DNA of 22,631 nucleotides from a virus: positions 1 to 22,631 of IMG/VR virus record IMGVR_UViG_3300027752_000122; one strand, written 5' to 3'. The notes under the pieces were generated by a model that was not told the DNA's origin, searched no databases, and saw only the letters and a program-made list of their open reading frames with translations. Position 1 is the stretch's first letter. Each line of letters starts with the position of its first letter. The translations under genes were made by a program, and so were the position numbers. Positions 5,962 to 20,106 of the stretch are shown one piece after another.

Positions 5962-5968
5962 AGTGAAG

Positions 5969-6016
5969 AGAAGGACGCAGGAAAAACCCTACATAAAACC
6001 TGCGTTATATCCTTCT
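5969..6016 (-). repeat. Long inverted repeat in the ninG leader
   Basis: AGAAGGA/TCCTTCT (7 pairs) and CGCAGG/CCTGCG (6 pairs) form a 13-pair stem with a five-base TTATA bulge on one side and a loop of about 17 bases. It lies between the 15-mer at 6037-6051 and the ninG ATG, ending seven bases from that ATG. No T-run follows, so it looks more like a leader structure or protein site than a terminator. Confidence 0.7.
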
Positions 6017-6036
6017 AATTTTTTAAGTATATAGGT

Positions 6037-6051
6037 CTTTATTTAAAAACA
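6037..6051 (-). promoter_or_regulatory. 15-mer TGTTTTTAAATAAAG, copy 5 (before ninG)
   Basis: An exact copy. Upstream context GATTAAAG is the same as at 10604. It lies directly after the holin stop codon and 75 bases before the ninG ATG, too far to be a translation signal for it, which favours a transcription or RNA-processing role. Confidence 0.6.
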
Positions 6052-6053
6052 CT

Positions 6054-6542
6054 TTAATCACGTTTCATAGTTTTCATAACCTTCTCAATACCTCTAGAGC
6101 CAAAGTAAAATATAGTCATAGTACCGAATAAAGACTGAATCACAGGAACGTAAGCTTTATCTATTGTAAACTCCCCTAGGTTACCATCAAAGAATACACA
6201 GGCTAAGAACATTAAAAACATAGCTCCGTAAGTCACAGGCCTAACTAGACGTGTAACGGTGTGCTCGTTATCCATACCTAGACGCTTAGTAACCTCTACC
6301 ATTTCAATCATATCATTCTCCATTTCTTGGAGTAGTAAAGTCTTGTCCGCTTCAGGTAAATTCTTATCGCCTCTTATAGCGTCTCCTAAGGTACTCAATT
6401 GTTTTATACCCGTGATATTACCTGCTAGAGTTAAAAGTTCAGGAGAAACGCTCTTACCTTGCTTCACAAGCCATCTAAGTGCATTACCTACGTTAGTTCC
6501 TTCTCCTCCGTTTTTTCTTAATTTCGGTTTGCTATTATCCAT
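6054..6542 (-). CDS. Holin-like membrane protein
   Basis: A 162-residue protein with a long soluble N-terminal half and two clear membrane segments at about 102-118 (PVTYGAMFLMFLACVFF) and 130-149 (AYVPVIQSLFGTMTIFYFGS), ending in a basic tail KVMKTMKRD. The layout resembles 3TM phage holins of the gene-transfer-agent type, which often have the R-P before the first segment as here (R101 P102). A holin would make the membrane lesion that lets the neighbouring amidase reach peptidoglycan. Position after the amidase supports this. The unusual part is the N-terminal 90 residues (LPEADKTLLLQEMENDMIEM is helical), longer than in small holins. Another inner-membrane role cannot be excluded. Confidence 0.7.
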   Translation of the reverse strand: MDNSKPKLRKNGGEGTNVGNALRWLVKQGKSVSPELLTLAGNITGIKQLSTLGDAIRGDKNLPEADKTLLLQEMENDMIEMVEVTKRLGMDNEHTVTRLVRPVTYGAMFLMFLACVFFDGNLGEFTIDKAYVPVIQSLFGTMTIFYFGSRGIEKVMKTMKRD

Positions 6543-6670
6543 AGTGTTAGTGTTATAGTTAAAAGTCTGTTTATAAGCATAAGAGTTTTAGGATACTTAG
6601 TAGAGTCCTCTCTAATTGTAGCACCTCCAATAAATGAAAGTATTATAAAAATCTCTCTTAGCTTACTCAC
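6518..6670 (-). CDS. Possible 50-residue hydrophobic protein overlapping amidase and holin genes
   Basis: A GTG at 6670 (overlapping the amidase end at 6663) opens a 50-codon frame that runs through the 120-base gap and ends at 6518, inside the holin gene. It has two hydrophobic stretches (IFIILSFIGGATI near 7-19 and LLTITLTLWIIA near 36-47) and a charged centre. Lysis regions often contain small overlapping membrane proteins, and the gap would otherwise be unexplained. Against it are the GTG start and lack of any recognised family. Confidence 0.35.
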   Translation of the reverse strand: MSKLREIFIILSFIGGATIREDSTKYPKTLMLINRLLTITLTLWIIANRN

Positions 6671-7094
6671 AATCTTTAAAGTAGTTTATTATATCTATAT
6701 ATTCTTTTTGTACGTCAAAACTAGGGCAAGCCTTAGAGCTAAATTCGTTGTGTCCGTGTAGTGTACTATTTGGGTACATATCCATTAAATCCATTATAAG
6801 AGCTTCTAGGCGTCCCTTTTGATTTTCTGTCCTTGTGTCCTTAGGTTTCATATTAGAGTCAACACCGCCGACGTATGTGATTCCTATAGAGCCTTTGTTA
6901 TATCCTCTTACGTGTGCACCTTGTCTTTCAACGGGCCTGCCTTCGTGTAGGTTTCCTTTAAGGTCTATTATATAGTGATATCCTATATCGCTCCAACCCC
7001 TATCTAAGTGCCATTGTCTTATAGTGTCCACAGATACATCTCTACCCTCGGGAGTAGCTGTGCAATGTATTATTAGTTTACTTATAGCCCTCAT
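6663..7094 (-). CDS. N-acetylmuramoyl-L-alanine amidase (endolysin)
   Basis: A 143-residue amidase-2/PGRP-fold enzyme that cleaves the bond between N-acetylmuramic acid and L-alanine in peptidoglycan. It is essentially all catalytic domain, like T7 lysozyme. Zinc and active-site residues are visible: H10 in LIIHCTAT, Y39 in DIGYHY, H115 in LHGHNEF, K121 and C123 in SKACPSFD; the spacing of the last three matches T7 lysozyme's H122, K128 and C130. The conserved GRPVERQGAHVRGYNKGSIG follows the first third. No signal peptide or wall-binding domain is present, so it needs a holin, which lies just downstream. T7 lysozyme also inhibits T7 RNA polymerase; nothing here suggests that. The start at 7094 is a few bases after the preceding stop. 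Confidence 0.93.
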   Translation of the reverse strand: MRAISKLIIHCTATPEGRDVSVDTIRQWHLDRGWSDIGYHYIIDLKGNLHEGRPVERQGAHVRGYNKGSIGITYVGGVDSNMKPKDTRTENQKGRLEALIMDLMDMYPNSTLHGHNEFSSKACPSFDVQKEYIDIINYFKDCE

Positions 7095-7096
7095 AT

Positions 7097-7789
7097 TTAC
7101 CTGTAATCTATATCTTTGAATTTACCGTTAAGCGTTTCAAAGGTTATCTTCATATCATTAGGTAGTAAGTCAATACCCATAGCCCACATATCAAATACAG
7201 CTAAAATTCTTTCAACGTTATTCGGGTGAAAGCTACTGCCAAATATAGCAGAGATTCTATGTTCAAAGGAGCGTATCACAGGAAACCTAAAGCCTTCAAA
7301 TAATGAAACAACGTGGTCTACACTGCTAGGAGCTATTCCTTTACTAAGCCACAAACTGCGTATCTCTTTTACGTAATCAACGTGCATCTCTGTCTGCTTT
7401 TCAAGTATTAACTTCTTTAGCTTGTCTGTATTCATTTCACATATACCGTCAGTAAAGATTATTTCTTTCATCAATATCTGACAGCTTATAGCTTTTTGAA
7501 CAGTAAACTCGTAGCACATTATAGACTTAGTCTTGTCGTATTCATTGCTAGTATAAAACCTCATATTATGCACCTCATTAACTACTCTCGAAAACGTGCT
7601 AAAAATATCGTGGTCTATAAGAGCCGACACCTTTATACCTTTTTTTACTCCTATATAATAGGTAATTTTCTTAATTGCTTTTTGTATATCCTTTTTAAAT
7701 ATAACAGATATTAGTGTTATTATTATAGTGATAAAAATCAAATATTGGTTATCCACTTTACGGACTAGGGTGTTCAATAAATCAAGCAT
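7097..7789 (-). CDS. Membrane-anchored protein of unknown function upstream of the endolysin
   Basis: A 230-residue protein with one membrane segment near residues 15-31 (NQYLIFITIIITLISVIFKK) followed by a positive patch (KKDIQKAIKKITYY), predicting an N-terminal anchor with a cytoplasmic body. The rest is a helical soluble domain with charged residues and several aromatic motifs (FEGFRFPVIRSFEHRISAIF near 163-182; MWAMGIDLLPNDMKITF near 201-217). I recognise no family. It lies between the head-tail connector and the amidase and runs into the amidase gene, so it may belong to lysis, to virion assembly at the membrane, or to protection of the infected cell against other phages. No catalytic motif is visible. 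Confidence 0.7.
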   Translation of the reverse strand: MLDLLNTLVRKVDNQYLIFITIIITLISVIFKKDIQKAIKKITYYIGVKKGIKVSALIDHDIFSTFSRVVNEVHNMRFYTSNEYDKTKSIMCYEFTVQKAISCQILMKEIIFTDGICEMNTDKLKKLILEKQTEMHVDYVKEIRSLWLSKGIAPSSVDHVVSLFEGFRFPVIRSFEHRISAIFGSSFHPNNVERILAVFDMWAMGIDLLPNDMKITFETLNGKFKDIDYR

Positions 7790-7832
7790 TGCTGTTGTTT
7801 TGCGGGGGTAGTTAATAAATAGTTAGTGTGTC

Positions 7833-8330
7833 TTAAATTTCCCAACCTCCAAAGTTGGTGTCTCTACTAGGGCTCAGTTCGTCATTAGAGTTAGTTAAGT
7901 ACTCAGGGTATAAAGAAGGATAGCTACATAAGTGGTCTACCATTCTATTTGCGTAATGCTGTGCCGTATCTCTCGTAGCCTCTACCATCATATTAAGGTC
8001 AGATTTAGTTAACGTCTCAGCGGCTTCACTAGTGTGTTTAAATACACCTTTGTTGTTGATACTGAATTGACTAAATGGTAAGAACTCTAGTAGTGCATAC
8101 TGAGCCAATATAGGCTTAATGTGTGTAGTCATTAAAGTCTCATAGTTTCCTGTAAGTGTGTTAGCTAAGATATCTGCCTGTAGTTTCTTATACAAGTTAC
8201 TTCCTAGTAATTCGTGTACGTGAATGTCTTGAGCTATCTCAATATATTGTACTACTCTGTCAAAATCTAGGTTTCCCGATATTGGTGTATATCTTACTAG
8301 GTCATCTCTACTAATAAATAAAGCTTTCAT
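7833..8330 (-). CDS. Head-tail connector-like protein (DUF6712-like)
   Basis: A 165-residue protein, mainly helical, resembling from memory the Bacteroidetes phage family that sits next to portal genes and is taken as a head-completion or connector protein. Features that fit: an N-terminal strand and turn (ALFISRDDLVRYTPISGNLD), the 'I-x-x-A-Q-D-I-H-V-H-E-L-L-G-S-N-L-Y-K-K-L' helix near 32-50, which resembles the 'ELLG..LY..L' pattern of connectors, then a long helical body and a C-terminal NFGGWEI. It starts just after the minor head protein stop at 8332. It would form a ring under the portal. The name is a family-level guess; position and the ELLGSNLY motif carry most of the weight. Confidence 0.65.
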   Translation of the reverse strand: MKALFISRDDLVRYTPISGNLDFDRVVQYIEIAQDIHVHELLGSNLYKKLQADILANTLTGNYETLMTTHIKPILAQYALLEFLPFSQFSINNKGVFKHTSEAAETLTKSDLNMMVEATRDTAQHYANRMVDHLCSYPSLYPEYLTNSNDELSPSRDTNFGGWEI

Positions 8331-8331
8331 A

Positions 8332-9000
8332 TTATTTCTTTTTTCCTTTTGGTTTATAACTTGGATGGTGGCCTTTGTCTGCTCTGTCTATTTGAGCCTC
8401 AGCTACCCTCCTATCATTTCTATAGCGTCCACTTTTAGGGTTAAAATGTTTTTTCTTAGCTTGTGCTATTGTACTCTTTTTTACTCCGTTCATTGCACCA
8501 CCTCCCCAAGGTGTACCATCATTTTTAGTCTTCTTTATATATATGCGTCTTTCAAATTTATGGTGGCAGTTAACCCCTCCTTTGTGTTTCCAAATGCTAT
8601 AAGCGTTTTTGTTGTGGCCTAGCACCGAATTAACACCGTCTGCTTGCATTTTAATAATATCTTCTTTTCTATATAACCTAGAGGCCGACTCCATAGCTCT
8701 ACAGAAGGGACGCATCTTTTTACCGTTGTTACTTTTGCCGTGCTTCTTTGCACCTTGTACGTAAGCGTAACGAACTTTCACAAACTTGTTATCTTGTTTG
8801 CTATCCTTTGCTCTATTATCTGCAGGTGCGAAACTAAGGGCCACGTTTAAGGTAGCGTTTAACATAGTTTCAAAGTCTTCGTCTTCTGTCTCCCCTTCGT
8901 CTATACGTGCATCAATACATACCCAATCTTCAGGCATAACTTCGCCTACCTTATTTAGGTATAGCAAAGTCTCGGCTTGTTGCTCTTCAAACGTACACAT
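8332..9000 (-). CDS. gpF-like minor head protein
   Basis: A 222-residue protein immediately downstream of the portal gene, with which it shares a TAATG junction. Residues about 72-155 carry a recognisable pattern: VRYAYVQGAK, RPFCRAMESASRLYRKEDI, and NAYSIWKHKGGVNCHHKFER, which resembles from memory the C-terminal region of Bacteroidetes phage minor head/protease proteins (a C, then D/E-I, then W-K-x-K-G-G-x-N-C-x-H). Cysteines and the CHH could bind metal. Residues 1-65 are acidic and the last 70 are strongly basic (KGHHPSYKPKGKKK at the end), suggesting DNA or capsid contact. It is shorter than full gpF-type proteins and lacks their protease part, which here is a separate gene at 19479. Function as a minor head protein is inference. 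Confidence 0.55.
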   Translation of the reverse strand: MCTFEEQQAETLLYLNKVGEVMPEDWVCIDARIDEGETEDEDFETMLNATLNVALSFAPADNRAKDSKQDNKFVKVRYAYVQGAKKHGKSNNGKKMRPFCRAMESASRLYRKEDIIKMQADGVNSVLGHNKNAYSIWKHKGGVNCHHKFERRIYIKKTKNDGTPWGGGAMNGVKKSTIAQAKKKHFNPKSGRYRNDRRVAEAQIDRADKGHHPSYKPKGKKK

Positions 9001-10235
9001 TAATCTCTAGTCTTTAGGTAAGCACTCATAGCTACTTCAATAGCTGAGCTTAAGTTTTGGTCTACTTTATTCTCCTTCTTATCCTTATCCTCTACCTTAG
9101 CTACTTTTTTGTCTTCTACTTCTTCTGTCTCTTCCTCTTGGTTTTCATTAGTAAACTCAATAGGTTGCGATGTAATAAAGTATAATTCAGGCACTTCTCC
9201 GTTAAGCTCTAAGACCTCTTCTAAGGCATCTAAAATCTCATCCTGAAAGTTACGTATAACCGTAGAGTTAAATAGCTGAGAAGCTACCATAATCTCATCT
9301 GAGTTGCTTGCAAGGCCATTACCTCCGTCTTTAATTCCTAGTAGCATAGGGCTAGTAACCCTGTGCCCTACTAAAATTTTGTGCATAGCTTCATTCGCTA
9401 GATACTCATAATGAGCAGGTGCATCATTTAAAGAGATATCTTCTACTGTTGCCTTGCTGTCTGCGTTCTCATTAAAGGCTACAATTACTTTTTGACCTTT
9501 AGAGCCTGTAAGCTTCTGCTTAACGTCGTTAGAGATAGCTGAACGCTCTGTAGCTGAAGGCACTCCGTTGTTGAAGTTAATAACCTTTGTACCGCTAAAA
9601 GAGTTCTTAGCCTCATTAAGTAAGTAGTCTGAGATTTCATTCTCTAGCTCACAATAAGGTAAAGCACCGCTATATCCTACAGGGCTGAAATATGAGTAAC
9701 CTGAAATGTATGGTTTTAATATAAACAATTCAATAGCCTCTTTTGAGTTACCAAATGTAGGTATCTTTTTAAGTGTATCCGTAGGTCTTTTGTCTACCCA
9801 ATTAGGATGGTAGTAATAATTCTCTATAACACCTTCAGCGTTCATTTTTTCAGGTCTTAAAGTATGTATAGGAAAATGCTTTATACCTACTACTTTTCTA
9901 TTGTTTCCTGTTTTACTATATATAACCTGCATAGCTGCCATTCCTAACATCTTACGCTCTAGTATAACCTTCTTTAAGTCTCTGTGATTGATTAGTTTTC
10001 TTAGCTCCTTAACTTGTGCGCTATCCTTCTCTAGACCATCGATACAAAGGCCCTGTCCGTAGATTAAATCTGAAATAGACTTTATAGCTGCGTTGTTAGT
10101 TGCACTCTGTAGGTATTGCTGTATTAAAAAACTGAAGTAGTCGTTATCTTCTCCGTAAGCCACGTAGTCCTTTAGCTTGTCCTCGATAGCCTTAGGCATT
10201 TCGTAAGCACTTAAATTGGTTATAGTATAGTTCAT
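9000..10235 (-). CDS. Portal protein
   Basis: A 411-residue portal, the dodecameric ring at the capsid vertex through which DNA enters and leaves. Visible features: helical N-terminal wing with DNDYFSFLIQQYLQSATNNA near 30-49, the clip/stem region with FGNSKEAIELFILKPYISGY near 161-181, and the crown helix with NEAMHKILVGHRVTSPMLLG near 281-300. The last 75 residues are highly acidic with EEETEEVEDKK, probably a flexible tail. The size is at the low end for portals but normal for Bacteroidetes phages. Both junctions are TAATG overlaps (10235 and 9000), so the 119-residue protein, portal and minor head protein are one coupled set. No terminase gene is in the window. Confidence 0.85.
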   Translation of the reverse strand: MNYTITNLSAYEMPKAIEDKLKDYVAYGEDNDYFSFLIQQYLQSATNNAAIKSISDLIYGQGLCIDGLEKDSAQVKELRKLINHRDLKKVILERKMLGMAAMQVIYSKTGNNRKVVGIKHFPIHTLRPEKMNAEGVIENYYYHPNWVDKRPTDTLKKIPTFGNSKEAIELFILKPYISGYSYFSPVGYSGALPYCELENEISDYLLNEAKNSFSGTKVINFNNGVPSATERSAISNDVKQKLTGSKGQKVIVAFNENADSKATVEDISLNDAPAHYEYLANEAMHKILVGHRVTSPMLLGIKDGGNGLASNSDEIMVASQLFNSTVIRNFQDEILDALEEVLELNGEVPELYFITSQPIEFTNENQEEETEEVEDKKVAKVEDKDKKENKVDQNLSSAIEVAMSAYLKTRD

Positions 10236-10594
10236 TAGTCTAGTATTGTGTAGTTAGTTGCTGTGGTTTTTTTAATATATTGTCCTTCGTTAATAGATAG
10301 GTTATTTATGTCTTTACTTGTTGTTTGAAATTTACCTCTGTATATTACCTTATTATTTACTGTGTCTACTAGTTCTATACTATATTGAGTCTCATCTTTT
10401 AAAACAACTAAAACCTCTTCGTCAAAATCTATAGAGCTATAGTAGTTGTGATACGTTATGTCTGAACTATGTTGAATGATTAAAGTATCCGAGCCGTCCT
10501 TGTAAATGCTAAAGTCAGCGTCCCCTACATTACTATCTGAGTTTGTGTTTATGTCTAGAGTTTGACTGCTCTGTGTTATATCAATGTAATTCAT
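10235..10594 (-). CDS. 119-residue virion-region protein, unknown
   Basis: A 119-residue acidic, beta-rich protein with alternating polar/hydrophobic strands (LIIQHSSDITYHNYYSSI; EEVLVVLKDETQYSIELVD; KVIYRGKFQTT). Such small all-beta proteins next to portals often belong to capsid decoration or tail completion, but I recognise no family. It opens the portal operon: a strong terminator (10639-10668) precedes it and a 15-mer copy lies at 10604-10618, nine bases before the ATG. Its stop overlaps the portal start. Confidence 0.65.
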   Translation of the reverse strand: MNYIDITQSSQTLDINTNSDSNVGDADFSIYKDGSDTLIIQHSSDITYHNYYSSIDFDEEVLVVLKDETQYSIELVDTVNNKVIYRGKFQTTSKDINNLSINEGQYIKKTTATNYTILD

Positions 10595-10603
10595 TTGTAA
10601 AGC

Positions 10604-10618
10604 CTTTATTTAAAAACA
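10604..10618 (-). promoter_or_regulatory. 15-mer TGTTTTTAAATAAAG, copy 4 (before the portal operon)
   Basis: An exact copy directly after a T-tract terminator (10639-10668) and nine bases before the ATG at 10594. Terminator followed by this element followed by a new operon is the clearest argument that it helps start transcription. Confidence 0.6.
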
Positions 10619-10638
10619 CTTTAATCTAGATAATGACA

Positions 10639-10668
10639 CAAAAAAAGAGCCACCGATTAAGGTAGCTC
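10639..10668 (-). terminator. Rho-independent terminator after the tail-tube gene
   Basis: Minus-strand GAGCTACC (10661-10668) and GGTGGCTC (10647-10654) form an eight-pair stem with one G-U pair and loop TTAATC, followed by seven T. It stands 25 bases after the stop codon at 10693 and ends the capsid/tail-tube unit. Confidence 0.9.
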
Positions 10669-10692
10669 TCTTATAGTATTCAAATGTAGTTA

Positions 10693-11208
10693 TTAGATAC
10701 CTACAGTTACTGCGAAATCTGTTGCGATTACACCTGTGTACTGCTTAGCGAAACCCTTCTCCATTGCTGCGAAAGTAAGCTCATATCCTGATTTGTCCCC
10801 TAAACTAGCTCCCGTAGAAACTGTAGCGTTCATTTCAGAACCAAACTCTTCACCCATTAGCCATACAGTACCGTTGTTGTCCTCAATAAGGATTTGTGGT
10901 CTTCCGTAAGCTAATAGCTTTACTTCTTTGTGAGTAGTTGCGTCTTGCTTCTTTAAAGAAACTGTAAGCGTCTGCTCAGCGAAAGTAGTTCCGTTGTCTC
11001 TACTAGATGTTAGTGATTGGTCAAAGGTAGATGTACCTCTTAGGTCGTATTTGAAAGCGTCAGGTGTAGTTGCTGCGATTCCTGTAACCGTTTCGTCAGA
11101 AATAGTTAAGTCTCCCATAGCACCGAAGTTTACGAAATAGATAGCGTTCAAGCCACCTACTGCGTCCTTACATCCTTCTAAACGTCCTGCTGTTATATTG
11201 CAAGCCAT
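10693..11208 (-). CDS. Tail-tube-like major tail protein
   Basis: A 171-residue protein matching, from memory, a Bacteroidetes phage structural family with the start MACNITAGRLEGCKDAVGGL and the central 'KYDLRGTSTFDQSLTSSRDNGTTF' / 'KLLAYGRPQILIEDNNGTVW' segments. The pattern of beta strands with G/T-rich turns and its size fit tail-tube subunits, which stack into the hollow tube of siphoviruses or myoviruses. It follows the capsid gene and ends at a strong terminator, consistent with high expression. Three cysteine residues near the N-terminus (C3, C13) and none elsewhere are unusual but may be structural. The assignment as tail tube rather than head completion is likely, not certain. Confidence 0.7.
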   Translation of the reverse strand: MACNITAGRLEGCKDAVGGLNAIYFVNFGAMGDLTISDETVTGIAATTPDAFKYDLRGTSTFDQSLTSSRDNGTTFAEQTLTVSLKKQDATTHKEVKLLAYGRPQILIEDNNGTVWLMGEEFGSEMNATVSTGASLGDKSGYELTFAAMEKGFAKQYTGVIATDFAVTVGI

Positions 11209-11250
11209 AATTTTTGTGTATTTAAGTTATTGATATTGAGTTAATTAAGA

Positions 11251-11268
11251 GCCCCTAATTAAAGAGGC
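11251..11268 (-). terminator. Weak hairpin between capsid and tail-tube genes
   Basis: A five-pair stem with loop TTTAATTA on the minus strand, followed by TCTTAATTAA rather than a full T-run. It resembles the hairpin at 14939-14958 in stem and loop. It may act as an attenuator setting the capsid-to-tube ratio. Confidence 0.4.
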
Positions 11269-11290
11269 CCTTTAGATAATTAGTCTGTTA

Positions 11291-12190
11291 TTAAGACTGA
11301 GTTGTAAGAACAAGCTCTGCTCCGATAGCGTATTGTACCGCCGCAGAATAACGCATTACGATTCTCACATTTTGAGACCCGTCGATATCTGCTAAGTCAA
11401 TAAGCTTAACTAAGTTTTGGTCATTTTGCAAACCGCAACCGAACATTAAGTTATCCTTTTCTCCTGCTACCATTTGTCCACTTGAAAGTCCGTTAGCTAC
11501 GAATAATTTAACTCCTTCAAAGTCCATTGCAGTCTGTCCTACGTGGTAAAGGTCTTTGTAACCTAAAGCTGCTTGAGCTCTTACGTAAGAACGTGCATCT
11601 GCTTGAGAGATATAAATTGCTAGTCCTTCGTTACCGTATACAGTCTCAGGAATTGCGTCTACTACTTCTCCTAAACGAGAGATAATGTTTCCTGCGTTTG
11701 TTACTCCTGTGAAAGCTACATCGTTAACGTCAGCGTCAGCCGTCATTAAGTTTACTAAGCCGTCAAATTTACCTGCTCCTGTTCCGTTCCAAATGTTGTT
11801 CTCTACGTTAGCTGCTACTTTACCTGCTACGTGTCCGATTAGGTAGTTAGCGAAAGACTTAGGTAGTTCGTCAAAAGAAGAAAAACCTTGCTCAATTGAA
11901 AGCCAATCCGATTCAAAATCTTTTTTACAAAGTTCCAAATTTACTTGGAAATCTTTTACTTCTAAATAACGCTCAGTAAGTGTTACACTTGAAGTTGCTG
12001 TGAAGTCACAAGAAGCGTCTGCTACTATGTCTCCTACTGCAAGCTTTTGCATTACTTGTTTGAATTTGATGTTCGGCTTTACTGTAATTCCGCCTTTGTC
12101 GATAGTTGGCGCTGATAATAAAGCTGCTGCGATAAATCCTGAAGCTTTTTCTCCTGCGTAACTTGTTGTGATACTAGTTGTTGTTGCCAT
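11291..12190 (-). CDS. Major capsid protein (HK97-like)
   Basis: A 299-residue protein with the layout of Bacteroidetes HK97-fold capsids: a threonine-rich N-terminal arm (MATTTSITTSYAGEKASGFI), a spine-like region (VMQKLAVGDIVADASCDFTA), a helix (FDELPKSFANYLIGHVAGKVAANVENNIWNG), and a C-terminal A-domain part (ADARSYVRAQAALGYKDLYHV; LMFGCGLQNDQNLV). No separate large delta domain precedes the arm, consistent with a separate scaffold just upstream (12218-12673). It probably forms the T-number lattice of the head. No own promoter is visible; it likely follows the scaffold gene from the control site at 12695. The codons look similar to neighbours. Confidence 0.87.
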   Translation of the reverse strand: MATTTSITTSYAGEKASGFIAAALLSAPTIDKGGITVKPNIKFKQVMQKLAVGDIVADASCDFTATSSVTLTERYLEVKDFQVNLELCKKDFESDWLSIEQGFSSFDELPKSFANYLIGHVAGKVAANVENNIWNGTGAGKFDGLVNLMTADADVNDVAFTGVTNAGNIISRLGEVVDAIPETVYGNEGLAIYISQADARSYVRAQAALGYKDLYHVGQTAMDFEGVKLFVANGLSSGQMVAGEKDNLMFGCGLQNDQNLVKLIDLADIDGSQNVRIVMRYSAAVQYAIGAELVLTTQS

Positions 12191-12217
12191 TGTTTAAATG
12201 AATTTTAATTGTTAATT

Positions 12218-12673
12218 TTAGTTATTATTAATGTACTTGAATACTCGTTCTTGAATTGTAGTTCCTTTTCTACCTACTCCTTTAGCGGTTGTTTTAACCT
12301 CAGCTTCAGGGCTGTGAGTTAGGGCCTTAGTCTCAGGCTCAGGTACTACAGGTGTCTCTACCTCTTCTACTTTCATAGCGTCTGCTAGAATCTTTTTAAG
12401 GTCGGCTAATTGACTCTCTAGAGCTTCCACTCTGTCGTCTTTTACCTCTTCTTTTGGCTCTGCCTCGGTCTCAATCTGTGGCTCTGCCTTTGGCTCTTCT
12501 ACTTCTGTTTTAACCTCTTCTACTACCTCAGCAATTGGCTCTTCTATTAGTTCTTTTGTTGGCTCTACTGCTTCAGGTTGTGGAGTTGGTTGTACTTCAG
12601 TTGTTTCTTGTGGCTGTGCTGCTATGTTTAGAGCTTCAGCGATTTTCTGTAACGTGTCTTTTGCGTTTAACAT
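12218..12673 (-). CDS. Scaffold-like acidic protein upstream of the capsid gene
   Basis: A 151-residue protein rich in E, P and V, with a long disordered region of EEP/VEE repeats (residues 20-80) and a coiled coil DDRVEALESQLADLKKILADAMK near 78-100. The C-terminus is basic (VGRKGTTIQERVFKYIN). An acidic coiled-coil protein with a basic C-terminal end directly before the capsid gene is the standard layout of a phage scaffolding protein, whose C-terminus binds capsid subunits and which is removed on maturation, here probably by the XkdF-like protease at 19479. The gene carries both the 15-mer and a leader element upstream. The scaffold name comes from position and composition, not from sequence identity. 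Confidence 0.7.
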   Translation of the reverse strand: MLNAKDTLQKIAEALNIAAQPQETTEVQPTPQPEAVEPTKELIEEPIAEVVEEVKTEVEEPKAEPQIETEAEPKEEVKDDRVEALESQLADLKKILADAMKVEEVETPVVPEPETKALTHSPEAEVKTTAKGVGRKGTTIQERVFKYINNN

Positions 12674-12681
12674 AATGTGAT

Positions 12682-12695
12682 TTAAGGGTTTATAC
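12682..12695 (-). promoter_or_regulatory. Leader element, variant copy g (only copy in the structural region)
   Basis: Minus-strand GTATAAACCCTTAA lies eight bases upstream of the scaffold ATG and abuts the 15-mer at 12695. This is the only place where the two repeated elements meet. Confidence 0.45.
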
Positions 12696-12709
12696 TTTAT
12701 TTAAAAACA
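12695..12709 (-). promoter_or_regulatory. 15-mer TGTTTTTAAATAAAG, copy 3 (before scaffold and capsid)
   Basis: An exact copy 21 bases before the scaffold ATG, likely controlling the scaffold, capsid and tail-tube unit. Upstream bases are TAAAAAG. Confidence 0.6.
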
Positions 12710-12736
12710 CTTTTTATGCTAATTTGATTTTTAGGA

Positions 12737-13003
12737 CTACAAAAGCTTATGTTTTGGGTTACTAGGCTCTACTTCGTAGCTTTTCCAACCATAAGGCGAA
12801 GCATCTAAGTCTCTCCAAAGCACGTCTAAAGCATACCCTTCAGATAAAATAGGAGCTGTTAATTCAACTCCTTCGTTATCGTATACACCTTCAGTTAGAA
12901 TAAACTTATTAAGCTTTATAAATGTTGCGTTAACACCTTCTTGAGATAGTATCTTACTTTCAGCTTGTTCCTTATCGTTAAATTCGTATCTAATATATAT
13001 CAT
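12737..13003 (-). CDS. 88-residue fibre-associated protein, unknown
   Basis: An 88-residue protein beginning MIYIRYEFNDKEQAESKILS and ending SYEVEPSNPKHKLL. It resembles, from memory, short proteins that follow fibre genes in Bacteroidetes phages, sharing a 'DVLW' core and a C-terminal 'W-x-x-Y-E-V-x-P-x-x-P-x-H' motif. Its ATG overlaps the fibre stop in a TAATG junction at 13003, indicating coupled translation and perhaps a dedicated chaperone or fibre-tip partner. That role is inference from position alone. Confidence 0.65.
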   Translation of the reverse strand: MIYIRYEFNDKEQAESKILSQEGVNATFIKLNKFILTEGVYDNEGVELTAPILSEGYALDVLWRDLDASPYGWKSYEVEPSNPKHKLL

Positions 13004-14574
13004 TATATTGTAGTTAAGGTTAATAATTCTGCATCCGTAAGAGCTGTATTGTATGTTCTCAAGTCTTTTACTTTTCCTTCAAAGGTGTCACCTCCTGTAG
13101 GGCTAGTAAAACTTACTCTATCTAAACCAACAGGTAAATTATTTATTGACGAAGACGCAGCAAGTGAGCCATTTATATACATTTTTAAATTTGTATTATC
13201 CCAAGACACAGCTATCTTATTGTTATCTGTTTGGATAATACCACTCTTTAATGCTGAAGTATATGAGCCTGCACCACCTCTAGCAAAACATCTAAATCTG
13301 CTTGCTGTGCTATCAATTCTAATATACACTAGATTGTCGTTAGTTCCATCTGAAAGTGAGATAATTCTATTAGAACCACCATTGCTTAAAGCAGTTCCTT
13401 CAAAGTATAATACTCCTTCAGTCGAATTGAATGTACTTGCATCTCCTGCTCCTGTTACTGAATCTGCTAACCTTGTGGCAATAACTCCTGTAGTTGGAAT
13501 ATAGCTAGTAGCGTATGATAGTTCTTCAATTTGAATCCCCCAATAAGCAGCGGTAACGTTAGCACCTCTATTTACCTGTAGTTGTTGGTTAGTAATAGTT
13601 GCTCCCGTAGTAAAAGTGAATCCTACTCTATACCAACCATTGCCATAATTTTCAACAAACAAATCTGTAGAATTACCTGATACATTTGTTAACACCTCTG
13701 TGTCAAAGGCAAAGGTTGCTATGTTGTTTGATAGCTCAGAATGACCCCACCTTAAGTATGCAGTATTGAAGCCACCTACTTGCTTTACGAATGCACTCAT
13801 TGTATGCTGTGTATTTACCGCAGTAAGTGTTGTTATAAAAGATAGTCTGTCTGACGCTCCTGCACCACTTAATACACTATAAGCTGAATTATCCCCACTT
13901 GGAGATGTTAACCCATTTGTCAATGTACTTGCGCTATTTGCCCAATTTGTTAAATCCTCTGAATAAGGTAATGAATTAGTACTCTGTGGTTCTACCAATA
14001 AAACAGGGCTACCACTTGTGTAGTCTATTCTAGGCTCATTACTAGAAACCTCTTCAATTAGTCCTAAAGAGTTTACTCTAGTAGCACTACTGCCTCTAAC
14101 TACGTCAAAGTCTCCTGTACCATCTTCAGGCAATACACTATATAATGTACCATCCTTATAGGCATTAGGGAGCATTGTAAGAGATGATGTATCGTCAAAG
14201 TTATCGGTATCTAGGCCTACTTCGTTATCTAAAGTACCGCCGTCTGTCGATACTCTTGTTTTGAAGGCTTCGAATAAAGCTATCAGTAAGTTACCCGCTA
14301 AGTTAATTATGTTGGAAATTGTGTTATTAGGAAACATAGGGTCGGATTCGTTAACTCCTGAGATAGGCCTTTCAACTATACCCGTATTGTTAACTACTGA
14401 ATCAGATTCTGTAGGTCTCCAAAATGGAGTTTCTGAGGTGTTTACACCCACTACAGAACGCTCTACTATACCCGTGTTATTTACTACACTAGTTGCTTCA
14501 CTGTCTAAGAATAAGTCAGATTCGTTAACTCCTGTTATTACTCTCTCTACTATTCCTGTATTTGTTATTGCCAT
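13003..14574 (-). CDS. Fibre/head-spike protein with triplicated N-terminus and laminin-G-like end
   Basis: A 523-residue adhesin-like structural protein. The first 90 residues hold three repeats of about 29 residues, each NTGIVER-x-x-x-GVN; the third ends in an acidic MFPNN, and the same GVN/F-P-N/D-N motif opens the 224-residue protein at 18788. Residues 136-207 contain the 'DGTLYSVLPEDGTGDF ... RGSSATRVNSLGLIEEV ... RIDYT' segment common in Bacteroidetes phage fibres. From about 360 to the end (STEGVLYFEGTALSN, KIAVSWDNTNLKMYINGSLA) is a laminin-G/concanavalin-like beta sandwich, likely glycan-binding. It probably contacts host surface polysaccharide. Coupled to the 88-residue gene; a few bases from the 107-residue gene upstream. 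Confidence 0.8.
   Translation of the reverse strand: MAITNTGIVERVITGVNESDLFLDSEATSVVNNTGIVERSVVGVNTSETPFWRPTESDSVVNNTGIVERPISGVNESDPMFPNNTISNIINLAGNLLIALFEAFKTRVSTDGGTLDNEVGLDTDNFDDTSSLTMLPNAYKDGTLYSVLPEDGTGDFDVVRGSSATRVNSLGLIEEVSSNEPRIDYTSGSPVLLVEPQSTNSLPYSEDLTNWANSASTLTNGLTSPSGDNSAYSVLSGAGASDRLSFITTLTAVNTQHTMSAFVKQVGGFNTAYLRWGHSELSNNIATFAFDTEVLTNVSGNSTDLFVENYGNGWYRVGFTFTTGATITNQQLQVNRGANVTAAYWGIQIEELSYATSYIPTTGVIATRLADSVTGAGDASTFNSTEGVLYFEGTALSNGGSNRIISLSDGTNDNLVYIRIDSTASRFRCFARGGAGSYTSALKSGIIQTDNNKIAVSWDNTNLKMYINGSLAASSSINNLPVGLDRVSFTSPTGGDTFEGKVKDLRTYNTALTDAELLTLTTI
14305..14565 (-). repeat. Three-fold repeat encoding the N-terminus of the 523-residue fibre
   Basis: Residues 4-31, 32-61 and 62-90 of the protein align on N-N-T-G-I-V-E-R and G-V-N-x-S. 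Two linker stretches end with S-V-V. The repeats suggest duplication of a docking element by unequal exchange or slippage. Confidence 0.75.
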
Positions 14575-14577
14575 TGT

Positions 14578-14901
14578 TTAATCTTCTTTTAGCCAATCTG
14601 ACTCGTTAATAAATTCTAAAGCCCTCTCAGCGTTAATTTCTGTTATGTTTAAAGTAGAATTGTTGATTAAAAAAACAGATTCATTTGTAAATACAAGCTC
14701 GTTTCCGTTGTTAGTATTGGTGTATATAGATACGATGTTACCTTCAAACATCTGACTAGTTGATAATCTGCTAGTTAGGTTACTAGACGCATTGTTAGTT
14801 ACGTCACTCATTTGATTGCCTCCGTACAAGCTACCAAAACCTTGGACACCCTGCCTATACCATTCTCTACCTACTTTTGGATATTTTGCTTTTATGTACA
14901 T
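14578..14901 (-). CDS. 107-residue virion-region protein, unknown
   Basis: A 107-residue protein with a basic, aromatic N-terminus (MYIKAKYPKVGREWYRQGVQ) followed by a low-complexity N/S/T-rich segment and a C-terminal strand region ending INESDWLKED. The final NESDWL recalls the VNESDLF of the fibre repeats encoded next, so the two may share a docking interface; this is a weak similarity. The start at 14901 lies only three bases after the 15-mer at 14905, so either the leader is nearly absent or a later ATG (codon 31, MSDVTNN) is used. I recognise no family. Confidence 0.6.
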   Translation of the reverse strand: MYIKAKYPKVGREWYRQGVQGFGSLYGGNQMSDVTNNASSNLTSRLSTSQMFEGNIVSIYTNTNNGNELVFTNESVFLINNSTLNITEINAERALEFINESDWLKED

Positions 14902-14904
14902 ACT

Positions 14905-14919
14905 CTTTATTTAAAAACA
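14905..14919 (-). promoter_or_regulatory. 15-mer TGTTTTTAAATAAAG, copy 2 (between fibre genes)
   Basis: An exact copy between the terminator-like hairpin at 14939 and the ATG at 14901. Upstream bases are AAAATAA. Confidence 0.6.
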
Positions 14920-14934
14920 TTATTTTGCTCTACT

Positions 14935-14958
14935 AAAACCCCCCTAGTTAAAGAGGGG
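14935..14958 (-). terminator. Probable terminator after the 1268-residue fibre gene
   Basis: Minus-strand CCCCTC/GGGGGG stem of six pairs (one G-U) with loop TTTAACTA, followed by TTTTAG. It stands ten bases after the fibre stop codon and just before the 15-mer. Confidence 0.65.
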
Positions 14959-14968
14959 CTGTAAGTAA

Positions 14969-17900
14969 TTAAGGTGTGTCAGTTACTAAGTCAACATTAT
15001 TGAAATTAAACCCTGTTAAATCTGCTGAACCAATTAAATCAGGTATAGTAGTTACGCTAGTTTCAATCTCATAGTAATGAACAGGAGCCGAACTTAATAA
15101 GCTCAAATCTTGTGTTGCACCGCTATTGTAGATAGTTGCTATATTAGCTGACTCGTCAGTGTTAAATATTGCTATTTGATTAACGACACCGTCACTTAAG
15201 TATTGACTAGTTGTAGCTCCTAGAAGTCTACCTATTCTATACTTGTCTGCGGGAATGTTAGCACTGAATCCACCACCTGTCTGCTGTAGCTGACTAGTTC
15301 CGTTTACTCCATTAATAAACATTGAAAACGCAGTTGCACCACCATTAGCAATAAGAGTATCTGCACCACTATAAGTAACTAGTACGTGATTCCATTGCCC
15401 TGTTGTGAAGTTACCTACACCTATATAGTTTAGATTATTGGCATTGTTACCGTATCTAAATAATAAGTTACTCCCACTAAATTGAGTTATATCGATTCTA
15501 CCTTCATTTGTCAAATCATCTCCACCGAAGTAGAATAGTGTTTGACTATTTGTAATAGTAGATGGTTTTACCCACATTGAAATACTCCAAGCATCACTTG
15601 CTCCACTTCCGTTACCTGTTCTCTGTAAGGAAGTTACTAGTGCGTGATTACCGTTTAAGTATGCGTTAGAAGAGCTAGGAAACTTTAAAGACTTATTGTT
15701 AGTGTAAGCTACCTGTGTAACCGTTACCGTAATAGTGAACTCAATAGCACCTCCAATAGCATTACCTGCCTTACAATTAACTACAATAGTATCTGCAGCC
15801 GTTCCTAAGTGTGCAGGGGCCGTACCGCTAAGTACACCACTATTTTGATTTAAAGTCATCCAACTAGGAGCATCTGACTCTACAAATTGATTAACGATAT
15901 TGTCAGAGCTTATAATCTGAAAGTTTAATACATCCCCTTCTGTAACTGAAGCTGTTTGATTAGCTACTGTAGGTACAAAATCAATATTGGGTTGTGAGCC
16001 TCCGTTTATAGATTGCTTAGATATTACAGGAATAGAGTAATAAGCTCTGTTACCTCTTACGCCATAGTGCAAATGTACTGAGCTACCTATTGTCGGGTCT
16101 GCTTTAGCTGTTGCTACCTTCTCTCCGTTATCCTCAGAGTATATGGTAAGCTTTCCGTCATCATTAAATCTCATTGAAAACATTCCCTGAATCGTGCTAG
16201 CTCCTCCTTTTCTATATCCTACTATACCTGCTCCGTTATCAAAGTAATATGTAGCGTTGGTGTTTACATTCCAATCTGAAGTACCACCAAATTCAAAGCT
16301 TAAAGCTTCGTTAGTTGCATAAGAAAACTCATTATCTAATTGGTCTTCTGCTGTAGATACTCCACTTGCAGCTCCTGTATAGTTAGTACCGAAGTAATCG
16401 CCTTGTCCAACTTCGTCAAACATAAACATTAGTTTTTCTCCCTTCTCAATAGAAATAGCACTCTTTAGAACTGTGTGGTCTAAAATACCATTAATGATAC
16501 CCGCTTCAGTGTTTGCGAAATCGTGTACAATGTCCCAAATGTAATCAACATTGTTGATAATACCATTAGGTAAAACTCCACCCGTCCAAGTATGCATCTG
16601 CATATTGAAAGATGTAACCGCTAAAGGTATTGTAGTTTTAGCTACAGCTACTTCATTAGCACCGCTTAAGTCAACTAGTGTTAAGTGTCCGTCATTACCA
16701 AATCTTATGCCCATAGCGTCTCCGTTAGAAACAACGTATTTAGAGCCTGAGTTGGTAGTTAGTAAAGCACTATTTGACCCTGCTGTGAAGCCACCTGCGT
16801 ATATAAACATTGTACCCCAATTAGAAGGTGTTATACTACCGCCATTATAAGCTGTAGCTACTTCTGCTCCGTCCCAAATACCCATTATTAGGTTAGCTCC
16901 TCCATTTGATTGAAAGTTCCATTTAAACTCAGCTCCTTGCTCTAAAGCTTGGCCAAAGTAAAAAGGTAATTGTTGATTAATTGTAGAGTCATTAGTTCCC
17001 GTTCCTACAGCATCATTTGCATTAGCTCCATAAGAGATATACCATCCGTTATTACTAGCTAGTCCACTAGAGCCATTAATCATATTAGTAGCGTCTATAG
17101 TTATCTGTGTAGCGTCATCTAAAACAAGCACTAAATTAGTACCTACAACTGAGCCACTTACTACAGGATTACCTGAGCCACTTGAGCCACCTAAAGTGGA
17201 AGCGTCAACAGTAACTGTAGAGCCGTCACTCATTGTTAAGATTATATCTGTGCCACTTACAGCTCCACTTGAAACAGTGGTATTTTCGTCAAGTCCTAAA
17301 GAAGTAACGTCTATAGTAACTGTACTTGCATCTGCCATTGTAAGCGTCAAATCTGAGCCACTTAATGAGCCACTAGATATGAAGTTATTTTCGTCTACTC
17401 CTAAAGTAGTTACATCAACTGTATAGGATACTCCGTCATTTAACCCCAATGTTAAATCATTACCGCTTAATGTAAAGGAATTTACAAAAGTATCTGTATC
17501 TACAAACGAAGCCGTATTTGTAAAGATAGCGTTTAATTGTACTACAGCCTGATTAAGTACTGAGTTTACAAAAGTTCCGTTAATACTCACAGCGTTAACA
17601 GGTAGACTTTCAGAAATTACCTTAGCACCGCCTTTAGCTTTAATTTTAATAGTAGTACCGTTAGCAATCGCTTCTAAGGTGTTTACTGCGTGTGGTTGTA
17701 ACAAACTGTCAGCTCCTAAGCTTAAGTCTCTTAAAAGGATTGTGGAGCCTGTTGAGTCAAGTCCAAAGTCCATAGCCTGATAATGTACATAAGGACTAAT
17801 GAGTTCTAAGTCTCTGTCTTCAAAGAATCTGTTTAAAACCGTTGTAGCGTATCTAGTTGGGGACGAACTACCTTCACATACTTGAAGCACACCATCGTTA

Positions 17901-18775
17901 ACCTCTTGATTATCTACTGTAGATACCTTGTAAATTGTAGCTTTTAATGTAGTACCCGCCTCAATATCTAGAGGGTGGTCAAAGTACCACGTAATGTCAT
18001 CATTTACAGCGTATGCGCCGTTATTTAAGTACTGAATATAAACAGATATGCCGTTTATAATAATTTCATACTTAAGCTGTTGGTCTGCCGTTACTACTTC
18101 AGCCGTTCTAGTTGTGATACCCACACCTGAGATATTGAATGGAAAAAAGTTGTCTCCGTCATAAGATATAGATGTGTCATTTACAGGGCTACCACCTAAA
18201 GGGATTTCTTGATAGTCTCCGAACACTCTCATTTTTGGTGTAGACGTTCCTGCTCCTGCAACTTGATTCTCAGGTAATGATTGGTCAAATACTTCTCCCA
18301 TTACAGGATATTGATTACCTTTAGTGGCTAAATCTTCATAGTAAAGGTTACTATTACCTGAGGCCATTTTGTACTTACCACCGATATAGAAACCGTGTTT
18401 CTTTACTTCAATATTTTTATTAGCTTCTAGCCTGTCTGTGATAGGATTGTACTCAAAGTACTCTGTAACTATAGGCTTTTTAATTTGTGCCTCTACGTAA
18501 GCTATAACAGCGTCTCTGTCCATTCCTAAGTCAGCCACTAAGTCTTGGCCCGCTTTGTTCTGAATACGACTGATATTTAACTTACCAAAGAATACTCTGT
18601 AATTAGTATCACTACCTCTCTTGAATACCGTATTTGATTTAATGCGTATTCTATTAGATATACTAGGGTGTGCTTCTACCTCTAGAGAGCCTATCTCTTT
18701 ATTACGAACTCTTGAGCCATCAAATTGAACTTTACCACTCTTAAGGTCAGAATATATTTTTACTTTATTTGCCAT
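14969..18775 (-). CDS. Large tail fibre/adhesin with beta repeats, cadherin-like and laminin-G-like domains
   Basis: A 1268-residue protein, the largest in the window. The N-terminal part (1-200) begins MANKVKIYSDLKSGKVQFDG, resembling virion-docking regions of Bacteroidetes phage fibres. Residues about 428-565 carry four repeats of about 36 residues with the pattern SG-x-x-SG-x-D/N-L-x-L-x-x-x-D-x-x-x-x-T-x-D-x-x-x-L-G, typical of an elongated beta shaft. Residues about 930-1022 (VPTVANQTASVTEGDVLNFQ ... SWMTLNQNSGVLSGTAP) match a cadherin-like/putative Ig domain. Residues about 1025-1268 (SLKFPSSSNAYLNG ... WSISMWVKPS ... WNHVLVTYSG) form a concanavalin/laminin-G sandwich. It is most likely the host-binding fibre, with the LamG head at the tip. 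A coherent adhesin reading frame with no break. Confidence 0.85.
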   Translation of the reverse strand: MANKVKIYSDLKSGKVQFDGSRVRNKEIGSLEVEAHPSISNRIRIKSNTVFKRGSDTNYRVFFGKLNISRIQNKAGQDLVADLGMDRDAVIAYVEAQIKKPIVTEYFEYNPITDRLEANKNIEVKKHGFYIGGKYKMASGNSNLYYEDLATKGNQYPVMGEVFDQSLPENQVAGAGTSTPKMRVFGDYQEIPLGGSPVNDTSISYDGDNFFPFNISGVGITTRTAEVVTADQQLKYEIIINGISVYIQYLNNGAYAVNDDITWYFDHPLDIEAGTTLKATIYKVSTVDNQEVNDGVLQVCEGSSSPTRYATTVLNRFFEDRDLELISPYVHYQAMDFGLDSTGSTILLRDLSLGADSLLQPHAVNTLEAIANGTTIKIKAKGGAKVISESLPVNAVSINGTFVNSVLNQAVVQLNAIFTNTASFVDTDTFVNSFTLSGNDLTLGLNDGVSYTVDVTTLGVDENNFISSGSLSGSDLTLTMADASTVTIDVTSLGLDENTTVSSGAVSGTDIILTMSDGSTVTVDASTLGGSSGSGNPVVSGSVVGTNLVLVLDDATQITIDATNMINGSSGLASNNGWYISYGANANDAVGTGTNDSTINQQLPFYFGQALEQGAEFKWNFQSNGGANLIMGIWDGAEVATAYNGGSITPSNWGTMFIYAGGFTAGSNSALLTTNSGSKYVVSNGDAMGIRFGNDGHLTLVDLSGANEVAVAKTTIPLAVTSFNMQMHTWTGGVLPNGIINNVDYIWDIVHDFANTEAGIINGILDHTVLKSAISIEKGEKLMFMFDEVGQGDYFGTNYTGAASGVSTAEDQLDNEFSYATNEALSFEFGGTSDWNVNTNATYYFDNGAGIVGYRKGGASTIQGMFSMRFNDDGKLTIYSEDNGEKVATAKADPTIGSSVHLHYGVRGNRAYYSIPVISKQSINGGSQPNIDFVPTVANQTASVTEGDVLNFQIISSDNIVNQFVESDAPSWMTLNQNSGVLSGTAPAHLGTAADTIVVNCKAGNAIGGAIEFTITVTVTQVAYTNNKSLKFPSSSNAYLNGNHALVTSLQRTGNGSGASDAWSISMWVKPSTITNSQTLFYFGGDDLTNEGRIDITQFSGSNLLFRYGNNANNLNYIGVGNFTTGQWNHVLVTYSGADTLIANGGATAFSMFINGVNGTSQLQQTGGGFSANIPADKYRIGRLLGATTSQYLSDGVVNQIAIFNTDESANIATIYNSGATQDLSLLSSAPVHYYEIETSVTTIPDLIGSADLTGFNFNNVDLVTDTP
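17085..17500 (-). repeat. Four-fold 36-residue repeat in the large fibre gene
   Basis: Four units ending in TTLGVDE, TSLGLDE, STLGG and ATNMI align over S-G-x-L/V-x-G-x-x-L-x-L-x-x-x-D. The second and third units are most alike. Units of this form are predicted to stack as beta structure in a fibre shaft. Confidence 0.75.
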
Positions 18776-18787
18776 TTTTTTTTGTTT

Positions 18788-19462
18788 TTAGTATTGAATA
18801 AATAATGCCATCTCATTCATTAAGATAGTTCCCGTTACATCTGACTTTACTTGAAATCTAATTTTCCCCGCGTCTCCTACTCCGTTAGTATTAATAGTGT
18901 CTCCTATAAAAAATTGAACACTCACAAGGTGCGGGTACTCTTCGTCTGCTCCTGACTCCATTGCTAGTCCTGCCGCGTTAATTGGAAAATCTTCTGAAGG
19001 TGTAGCCCCTGAGTGTCTTTCTAAAAAGATTCTAGAGTCTAAACGTCCACCATCTTCGTCAGGTATGAATGTCAAAGAAGTTCTAAGCGTTGCTGCTGAC
19101 TCCTCAACTAAACCTTCTAATAAGAAAACTATAGGGTCTCCTACAGCTCCTGTTCCTGAAAAGCCGTTAGGTGTTGCTTCTTTCTGCGCATCTACTCTCT
19201 TGTCAGATACTCCGTTAGGGTGTATAGTCATTACAACCTCTTGCCAAACATCTACGTCTTCTATTAGTACCTCGTTAGACGTTGCTGCTCCGTCAAAATA
19301 AACAGCCGATAAAAGGCCTATATATCCTTGTATCCTATCCGTTATAACCTCACTTGAAGTAAAGTTAGTTGTTGCTGAGTTATTGTTATTTGATGTTGAC
19401 TCCGTGTTATCGGGAAACAAATGTGACCCGTCATTTACTCCTGTAATCTCTCTAATTGGCAT
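18788..19462 (-). CDS. 224-residue structural protein with GVN/FPDN N-terminus
   Basis: A 224-residue protein that starts MPIREITGVNDGSHLFPDN, matching the repeat ERPISGVNESDPMFPNN in the 523-residue fibre. The body is a beta-rich domain (VLIEDVDVWQEVVMTIHPNG; KIRFQVKSDVTGTILMNEMALFIQY) compatible with a fibre-attachment or baseplate part. It lies between the protease and the large fibre, about a dozen bases upstream of the latter. The shared N-terminal motif suggests that both proteins dock on the same virion partner. Function is inferred from this and from context; I recognise no named family. Confidence 0.65.
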   Translation of the reverse strand: MPIREITGVNDGSHLFPDNTESTSNNNNSATTNFTSSEVITDRIQGYIGLLSAVYFDGAATSNEVLIEDVDVWQEVVMTIHPNGVSDKRVDAQKEATPNGFSGTGAVGDPIVFLLEGLVEESAATLRTSLTFIPDEDGGRLDSRIFLERHSGATPSEDFPINAAGLAMESGADEEYPHLVSVQFFIGDTINTNGVGDAGKIRFQVKSDVTGTILMNEMALFIQY

Positions 19463-19478
19463 ATTGTTGTTTTATATA

Positions 19479-20084
19479 TTAATAATTTTCTTTTACAAAT
19501 TCACGTATCATATCCAAAGTCTTGTCTAAAACTTGGTCGCTGAAGTCCATATCTGAGCTTTCTTTTCTTAGTACATTTGCGAATTTACCCTCAATACTAA
19601 AGCCAAAAACTTTGTTATCTTTTACGTAGTTATCCCATACGTCTTTGTCATCAACTTTCATCGACACCATCCACGTACCTGCGGGTACTTCAAGGCCGTA
19701 CTTTTTAGACTTGTCAAACTCAGGGTCTTCTACTATCCACGATTCAAATACAGTCATATTATCTAAGACCTCAGCGTGCTCTAGAGTAGCGTTGTTTTGA
19801 TTGTTATTTCTGAAAAAAGCCTCAGCCGTTTTAGCTATAGTCTCCTTTGAAAAATACACATAGTACTCTTCGTCTCCGTCTTTTCTGTAGATAGGCTTGT
19901 CAGGAATTAAAGCAGCACCCATAAGTATCTGCTTATCCTTGCTAACTTCTGCCAATAAGACAGGTTTTTGGTCTCCCAAAGCAATGAAATCTGACTGTAT
20001 GGCAGGATTCTCCACTATTGAAAGAGCGTGTACCCCTGAAAGTAACAGGTCATTTTCGTCTATTAGTAATTCGTATAATTTCAT
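19479..20084 (-). CDS. XkdF-like prohead protease (S78-2 family)
   Basis: A 201-residue protein matching the XkdF family of phage serine proteases that mature procapsids by removing scaffold and capsid arms. The family's features run in order: MKLYELLIDEND with ALSIVENPAIQSDFIAL near 20-36, the core LLAEVSKDKQILMGAALIPD, IYRKDGDEEYYVYFSKETI near 65-83, ATLEHAEVLDNMTVFESWIV near 98-117 (H102 is the likely catalytic histidine), and GTWMVSMKVDDKDVWDNYVK near 136-155, with KVFGFSIEGKF (S in GFSIEG is the candidate nucleophile) near 158-168. In many Bacteroidetes phages this gene lies by the portal or scaffold; here it follows the tape measure gene, about 7 kb from the scaffold. The ATG lies seven bases after a 15-mer. 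Confidence 0.85.
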   Translation of the reverse strand: MKLYELLIDENDLLLSGVHALSIVENPAIQSDFIALGDQKPVLLAEVSKDKQILMGAALIPDKPIYRKDGDEEYYVYFSKETIAKTAEAFFRNNNQNNATLEHAEVLDNMTVFESWIVEDPEFDKSKKYGLEVPAGTWMVSMKVDDKDVWDNYVKDNKVFGFSIEGKFANVLRKESSDMDFSDQVLDKTLDMIREFVKENY

Positions 20085-20091
20085 AATTTAC

Positions 20092-20106
20092 CTTTATTTA
20101 AAAACA
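20092..20106 (-). promoter_or_regulatory. 15-mer TGTTTTTAAATAAAG, copy 1 (before the protease)
   Basis: An exact copy in the 27-base gap between the tape measure stop and the protease ATG at 20084. Upstream bases are AAAATAT. Confidence 0.6.

Follow-up and report, generated by a model that had tools for sequence, protein, structure and literature searches.

A 15-bp element heading the late operons of a tailed phage is probably the -10 region of promoters recognised by an ECF-like sigma factor that the phage encodes

Background

What is the role of a 15-bp sequence that stands, letter for letter, in five gaps between the genes of a virus? The question is raised by a 22,631-nt stretch of viral DNA (hereafter the window, by which we mean the whole stretch), for which the original prediction had proposed either a phage-specific promoter or an RNA-processing site. 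The promoter half of that proposal turns out to be well supported, by an AAC at fixed spacing, by terminators, by placement before late genes only, by the presence of a sigma factor and by a concerted change in one relative, whereas RNA processing is disfavoured. On sequence grounds, the 15-mer probably serves as the -10 region of a phage late promoter, in the form of an extended -10 that is unusually long and hardly varies, and its reader is probably the ECF-like sigma factor that the phage itself encodes at 250-831.

The genes of the window include those for a portal, a tape measure protein, a capsid homologue, an amidase, a holin, NinG, ERF and a helicase, and by this content it is a tailed phage. 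Among annotated phages, Nonlabens phage P12024S/L comes nearest to it (portal 37%, capsid 33%), so the host is likely to be of Flavobacteriia type; a scan of a genome collection with a capsid profile found zero relatives, and hence gave no host call from integrated copies.

Occurrence and conservation of the element

The 15-mer, TGTTTTTAAATAAAG, has five exact copies in the window, all on the minus strand, all between ORFs and all at the positions originally given, while an exact search of the plus strand found zero; an order-2 Markov model leads one to expect 0.0002 copies in the sense and 0.0005 in the antisense orientation. Copy 1 (20092..20106) lies 7 nt before the ATG of a protease-like gene on the minus strand (19479-20084, MKLYEL...) that comes after the tape measure gene, and copy 2 (14905..14919) lies 3 nt before the ATG of 14578-14901, whose product begins MYIKAKYP. 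Copy 3 (12695..12709) is 21 nt from the ATG of a scaffold-like gene (12218-12673) with the capsid gene (11291-12190) downstream, copy 4 (10604..10618) is 9 nt from the ATG of 10235-10594 with the portal gene (9000-10235) downstream, and copy 5 (6037..6051) directly follows the holin gene and is separated by 75 nt from the NinG endonuclease gene (5554-5961). All five distances agree with those originally stated. Sites equivalent to copy 1 are found in three long related contigs (G001-G003, 33-36 kb), and sites equivalent to copy 5 are found in relatives as well.

Across 80 loci obtained by a capsid-based scan of IMG/VR, the exact 15-mer occurs 172 times in the sense orientation, i.e. that of the capsid gene, and not once in antisense. 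As a count of exact copies is a circular measure, conservation was rescored at orthologous positions: the exact 14-bp core is present at 65 of 68 positions for the scaffold operon and at 70 of 75 for the portal operon, base 15 being G or, less often, C. The antisense control at orthologous sites gave best matches mostly with 3-4 mismatches. Among relatives with capsid identity below 71% no orthologous site has the exact core, and the 15-mer is absent both from relatives with 54-67% capsid identity and from P12024S. The original prediction had named absence of the 15-mer from relatives that keep the operons as evidence against itself; within the clade the 15-mer is conserved, but distant relatives do lack it and have another element at the equivalent places (see below).

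One phage of the clade, L077, has TGTTTTTAA[TCG]AAAA at four sites, a concerted change at indices 9-10 of the element that is best explained by a single trans-acting reader. The same change argues against the view that the element is a short homologous joint for recombination between modules of related phages. The copies do sit at module boundaries in mosaic phages, as such joints would; yet their orientation is fixed, sister clades have other elements at equivalent places, an upstream element is conserved together with the 15-mer, and 15 bp is short for recombination, so that we consider this explanation extremely improbable.

Genomic context

In all three long contigs the element precedes the terminase region, the genes before and after the tape measure gene, and the scaffold/capsid and portal operons; it also precedes the tail operon in two of the three and the MYIKAKYP gene in one. 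Its copy before the NinG gene marks the border between late and early genes in each of them, and none was seen before ERF, helicase, sigma or other early genes.

The host-type TAnnTTTG box is distributed the other way, with 23 occurrences in 4,936 nt of early intergenic DNA versus 3 in 5,365 nt of late intergenic DNA (window plus the three long relatives). As originally noted, no such box accompanies any copy, the nearest upstream one (10681-10688) lying beyond a terminator-like hairpin at 10643-10672. A Bacteroidetes host sigma-A promoter with this -7 box was rejected at the copies, since the box is absent beside five of five and occurs mostly in early gaps. Matches to the E. coli sigma-70 consensus, which are fewer in the window than in shuffled sequence, were disregarded.

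Two copies had been said to follow terminators, and this is what we find: the minus-strand hairpin at 10643-10672 precedes copy 4, separating it from the upstream transcript, and another at 14939-14957, also on the minus strand, precedes copy 2. Among dereplicated portal-operon copies of the clade, 18 of 20 have a terminator-like hairpin within 110 nt upstream, versus 27 of 2000 random windows (1.35%).

Promoter architecture and start codons

Promoters of ECF sigma factors have the layout AAC-N16-CGT, with the -35 element some 16-17 nt from a CGT-type -10. The window clade shows a comparable geometry, AAC-N16-TGT, at a minority of its sites: of 99 dereplicated sites, 18 have an AAC whose last base lies exactly 16 nt upstream of the TGT, compared with 2.5 per position, and AAACAA is found at one spacing only within the spacings listed. 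More generally, upstream sequences across the clade tend to have a C at -17 with an A-rich stretch after it, a weak -35-like signal whose C is present in 46 of the 99 sites. Within the window it is clear in two of the five copies, 3 and 4; the TCAAA of copy 3 (12723..12727, minus strand), with its C at about position -17 relative to the TGT, matches the C and following AAA of the clade. Sister clades have AAC-N15-17-CGTTA. One point against the promoter reading is that the AAATAAA half of the element, placed between a CGT-type -10 and the transcription start, is invariant, which known ECF promoters do not require. The sigma-L factor of the tuberculosis bacterium uses CG at -14/-13 and tolerates a spacer of 4-6 nt from the -10 element to +1 (PMC6372665). 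Taken together, this spacing and the ECF geometry would place the transcription start in about the last bases of the 15-mer, presumably near its last G.

An alternative that takes the element to act in RNA, as an endonucleolytic cleavage site for the processing of late mRNAs at operon junctions, would fit the position of the copies at transcript junctions, their restriction to the sense strand and their invariant sequence. It does not, however, predict an AAC at a fixed distance outside the element, terminators just upstream of many copies, or CGT-type elements with the same upstream AAC in sister clades, and we regard it as very unlikely.

If the copies are indeed promoters, many of the leaders would be very short. 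The distance between the end of the core and the start codon ranges from a minimum of 4 nt up to 97 nt, and at about half of the 92 dereplicated sites it is 4-11 nt. The 3-base gap at 14905 had been considered the main difficulty, as it would need a leaderless start or a later start codon. An annotation error is not the explanation: the close start codon is real because relatives keep both the MYIKAKYP N-terminus and the spacing, with ATG or GTG 4-6 nt after the core. This gene would have a leader of about 4 nt, should transcription start near the last G of the 15-mer. The scaffold/capsid operon (window 12674-12709) has a longer leader in the window clade, mostly about 18-27 nt and often TATAAACCCTTAAA, and scaffold genes of sister clades also tend toward a longer leader.

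A special case is the leader between the 6037 promoter and NinG, which is 64-97 nt long in the window, L093, L049, L061, L069, L100, L157 and others, and in the window occupies 5962..6037 on the minus strand, including the last base of copy 5. It contains a hairpin with a covarying stem, in which five pairs have both partners changed in each of two subclades, and with an invariant GGGTTT in the loop; one subclade has a U-run after the hairpin, as in an intrinsic terminator. An Rfam search gave no match for this leader, which might act as an attenuator or give rise to a small RNA of the late phase. Its predicted 5' end (GACCCUA, GAACCC; first 10 nt) can pair with the loop in 10 of 18 leaders, compared with a mean of 3.0 and a maximum of 8 in shuffles, and a pseudoknot is therefore possible.

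Candidate readers of the element

The original prediction also called the protein of 250-831 (minus strand) sigma-like, and several comparisons identify it more closely as an ECF-type sigma factor. It matches phrog_1740 (E 4e-8); TIGR02937 (sigma70-ECF) matches 12 of 12 homologues, the window protein itself scoring below the curated cut-off of that family; and the top Foldseek matches are ECF sigmas, the best being M. tuberculosis sigma-L (E 3.7e-4, with a model of moderate quality, pLDDT 70). A search of PDB sequences with the sigma profile returned chance matches only, to an unrelated viral protein.

The sigma gene follows the helicase gene and was found in 7 of 25 relatives' contigs and in two further clade members, with about 50-80% identity; these comprise all three long contigs and six others from the clade. 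Because the contigs are mostly fragments, absence of the gene can be scored only where the early block is reached, and clade members that clearly reach it do have an ECF-type sigma. Contig G007 extends about 5.5 kb past the NinG site with no sigma match, and since the sigma of the window lies 5.2-5.8 kb past that site, this absence may reflect truncation. Sister clades have distant sigma homologues instead (22-37% identity in a table covering loci other than L092), paired with different elements. The pairing of sigma and element is an association, suggested by co-occurrence and geometry.

In G001-G003 the gene after sigma (e.g. G001 28095-28559, MNERVFELHDEGLTAGKIAQKLKIK) encodes a small conserved protein, perhaps with a helix-turn-helix at its N-terminus, which could be a partner of the sigma factor or an alternative reader.

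One may also consider a late promoter with some other reader, either an ECF sigma of the host or the host's RNA polymerase acting with another phage-encoded factor. Flavobacteriia hosts have ECF sigmas of their own that use CGT-box promoters (PMC9723704), the phage sigma is proposed as the reader by co-occurrence and geometry rather than by binding, and the invariant AAATAAA could need an extra contact. Nevertheless, the element shifts in concert within L077 and differs by clade, as a phage-borne reader predicts and a shared host factor does not, and the sigma gene is present in those members of the clade whose sequence clearly extends into the early block. We therefore judge another reader to be unlikely.

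Divergence of the element in sister clades

Exact k-mer searches in distant clades found no long repeat, and the elements of these clades were recognised only by reading the sequence upstream of their operons. At places equivalent to those of the 15-mer one finds CGTTATATAGAT-ATG, CAGTTAYTTATAT-ATG, GCGTTATAATACT-ATG and CGATATATAATT-ATG, and in P12024S TTTYCGTTAATATA-NN-ATG. Over 197 dereplicated upstream regions, GTTA stands 11 nt before the ATG 17 times, and no other distance has more than 7; a lesser peak, scaffold genes among it, lies at 26-28 nt. At many sister-clade sites CGTT begins exactly 12 nt before the ATG. AAC-N15-17 precedes 19 of 29 sister-clade CGTTA elements, which indicates that the geometry has been retained while the sequence of the element changed.

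P12024S (L103) has a late element of its own, TTTYCGTTAATATANN-ATG with AAAACAAA upstream, at 179, 3031, 5412, 23961, 25201 and 26802. Shortly before its terminase it encodes P12024S_33, a protein annotated as sigma-70 region 2; being a cultured phage, it is a potential test system. In L158, L160 and their kin (capsid 54-55%) a terminator-like run, CCCTTTTTTTATG, abuts the called start of the portal-operon gene and leaves no space for a promoter at that place.

The rigid 12-nt spacing between CGTT and ATG in many sister-clade sites could also be expected of a translation enhancer or ribosome-loading sequence, an idea that is helped by the short distance to the ATG in about half of the dereplicated window-clade sites and by the finding that A-rich stretches upstream of the ATG aid initiation in Flavobacterium (PMC6847099). 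Such a sequence would hardly tolerate core-to-start distances as varied as 4 to 97 nt, would not be expected to head late operons while sparing internal genes, and leaves the fixed-spacing AAC still further upstream unexplained; we hold it to be highly improbable.

Returning to the promoter reading, strict ECF geometry (C at -14) poses a difficulty for the other clades: transcription would start as far as 2 nt into the ATG, except with a -10 to +1 spacer of 4 nt, which is at the lower limit of the lengths tested (PMC6372665). Tentatively, these phages may share a lineage-specific late promoter code, in which sigma and promoter co-diverge while AAC-N15-17-CGT is kept; with the ATG about 12 nt from the CGT in sister clades, their late regulon would be largely leaderless, even though leaderless mRNA is rare in the hosts.

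Discussion

Infection could proceed as follows. Host RNA polymerase with a host sigma factor would transcribe the early genes from TAnnTTTG promoters; the phage ECF-like sigma (250-831) would then be made and would redirect the polymerase to the late promoters, where transcription would begin close to the final G of the 15-mer. The 5' ends of most late mRNAs would then lie about 4-12 nt upstream of the AUG, something a host without Shine-Dalgarno sequences could tolerate, while the leader would be about 20 nt long in the scaffold/capsid message and structured, with about 65-97 nt, in the NinG message.

A literature search, with most subscription journals outside its reach, found no account of late transcription or promoters in these phages. 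What appears to be new is the Bacteroidetes-type setting, the invariant core, the putative near-leaderless late mRNAs and the possible clade-specific promoter code. The element lets late operons be called directly from metagenomic sequence. The series of sigma-promoter combinations (the window clade versus CGTTATA, CAGTTAYTTATAT, CCGTTAATATA and others) could teach how ECF sigmas choose their -10, and such pairs could supply orthogonal promoters for Flavobacterium. Should the late mRNAs indeed be leaderless, one would also have to ask how they are translated in a phylum that lacks Shine-Dalgarno sequences.

Flavobacterium sigma-ECF promoters are likewise marked by CGT boxes (motif SM6; PMC9723704), but they serve a host regulon, that of the T9SS genes; leaderless mRNAs make up only 5.5% of the mRNAs of the host there, whereas many sister-clade phage late genes would be leaderless or nearly so. 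The early promoters of AR9 resemble ours in being a long, AT-rich and highly conserved phage element (AAATATATATTAT-N6-G; PMC5312081), which there serves early genes and is attributed to a virion multisubunit polymerase in a giant phage.

The classical late sigma is gp55 of T4 (PMC2988020). T4 late promoters (gp55/gp33/gp45) share with the present ones an AT-rich -10-type late box, a small divergent sigma and an AT-rich downstream segment (PMC2988020). They differ in consisting of an 8-bp TATA box with no upstream element, where we find TGTTTTTAAATAAA and an AAC 16 nt upstream, and our sigma resembles ECF sigmas. A gp55-type promoter, i.e. a TATA box alone, was accordingly rejected, the element being TGTTTTTAAATAAA with a positioned AAC.

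There is a close likeness in kind to phiEco32 and 7-11 (C3 podophages), known for phage-encoded ECF sigmas with extended -10 promoters (PMC4331800, PMC7881722, PMC5333181). As in those phages, where phage-specific promoters stand before middle and late genes, we find a phage-encoded ECF-type sigma, a conserved phage-specific motif, here only before late operons, and an extended -10 of 14 nearly invariant bases combined with a weak -35 (the C at -17). Their extended -10 has no recognisable -35, whereas here a weak positioned AAC is detectable and the element has another sequence; and the present system is set apart by its Bacteroidetes-type setting, with TAnnTTTG early promoters and with start codons only a few nucleotides from the element.
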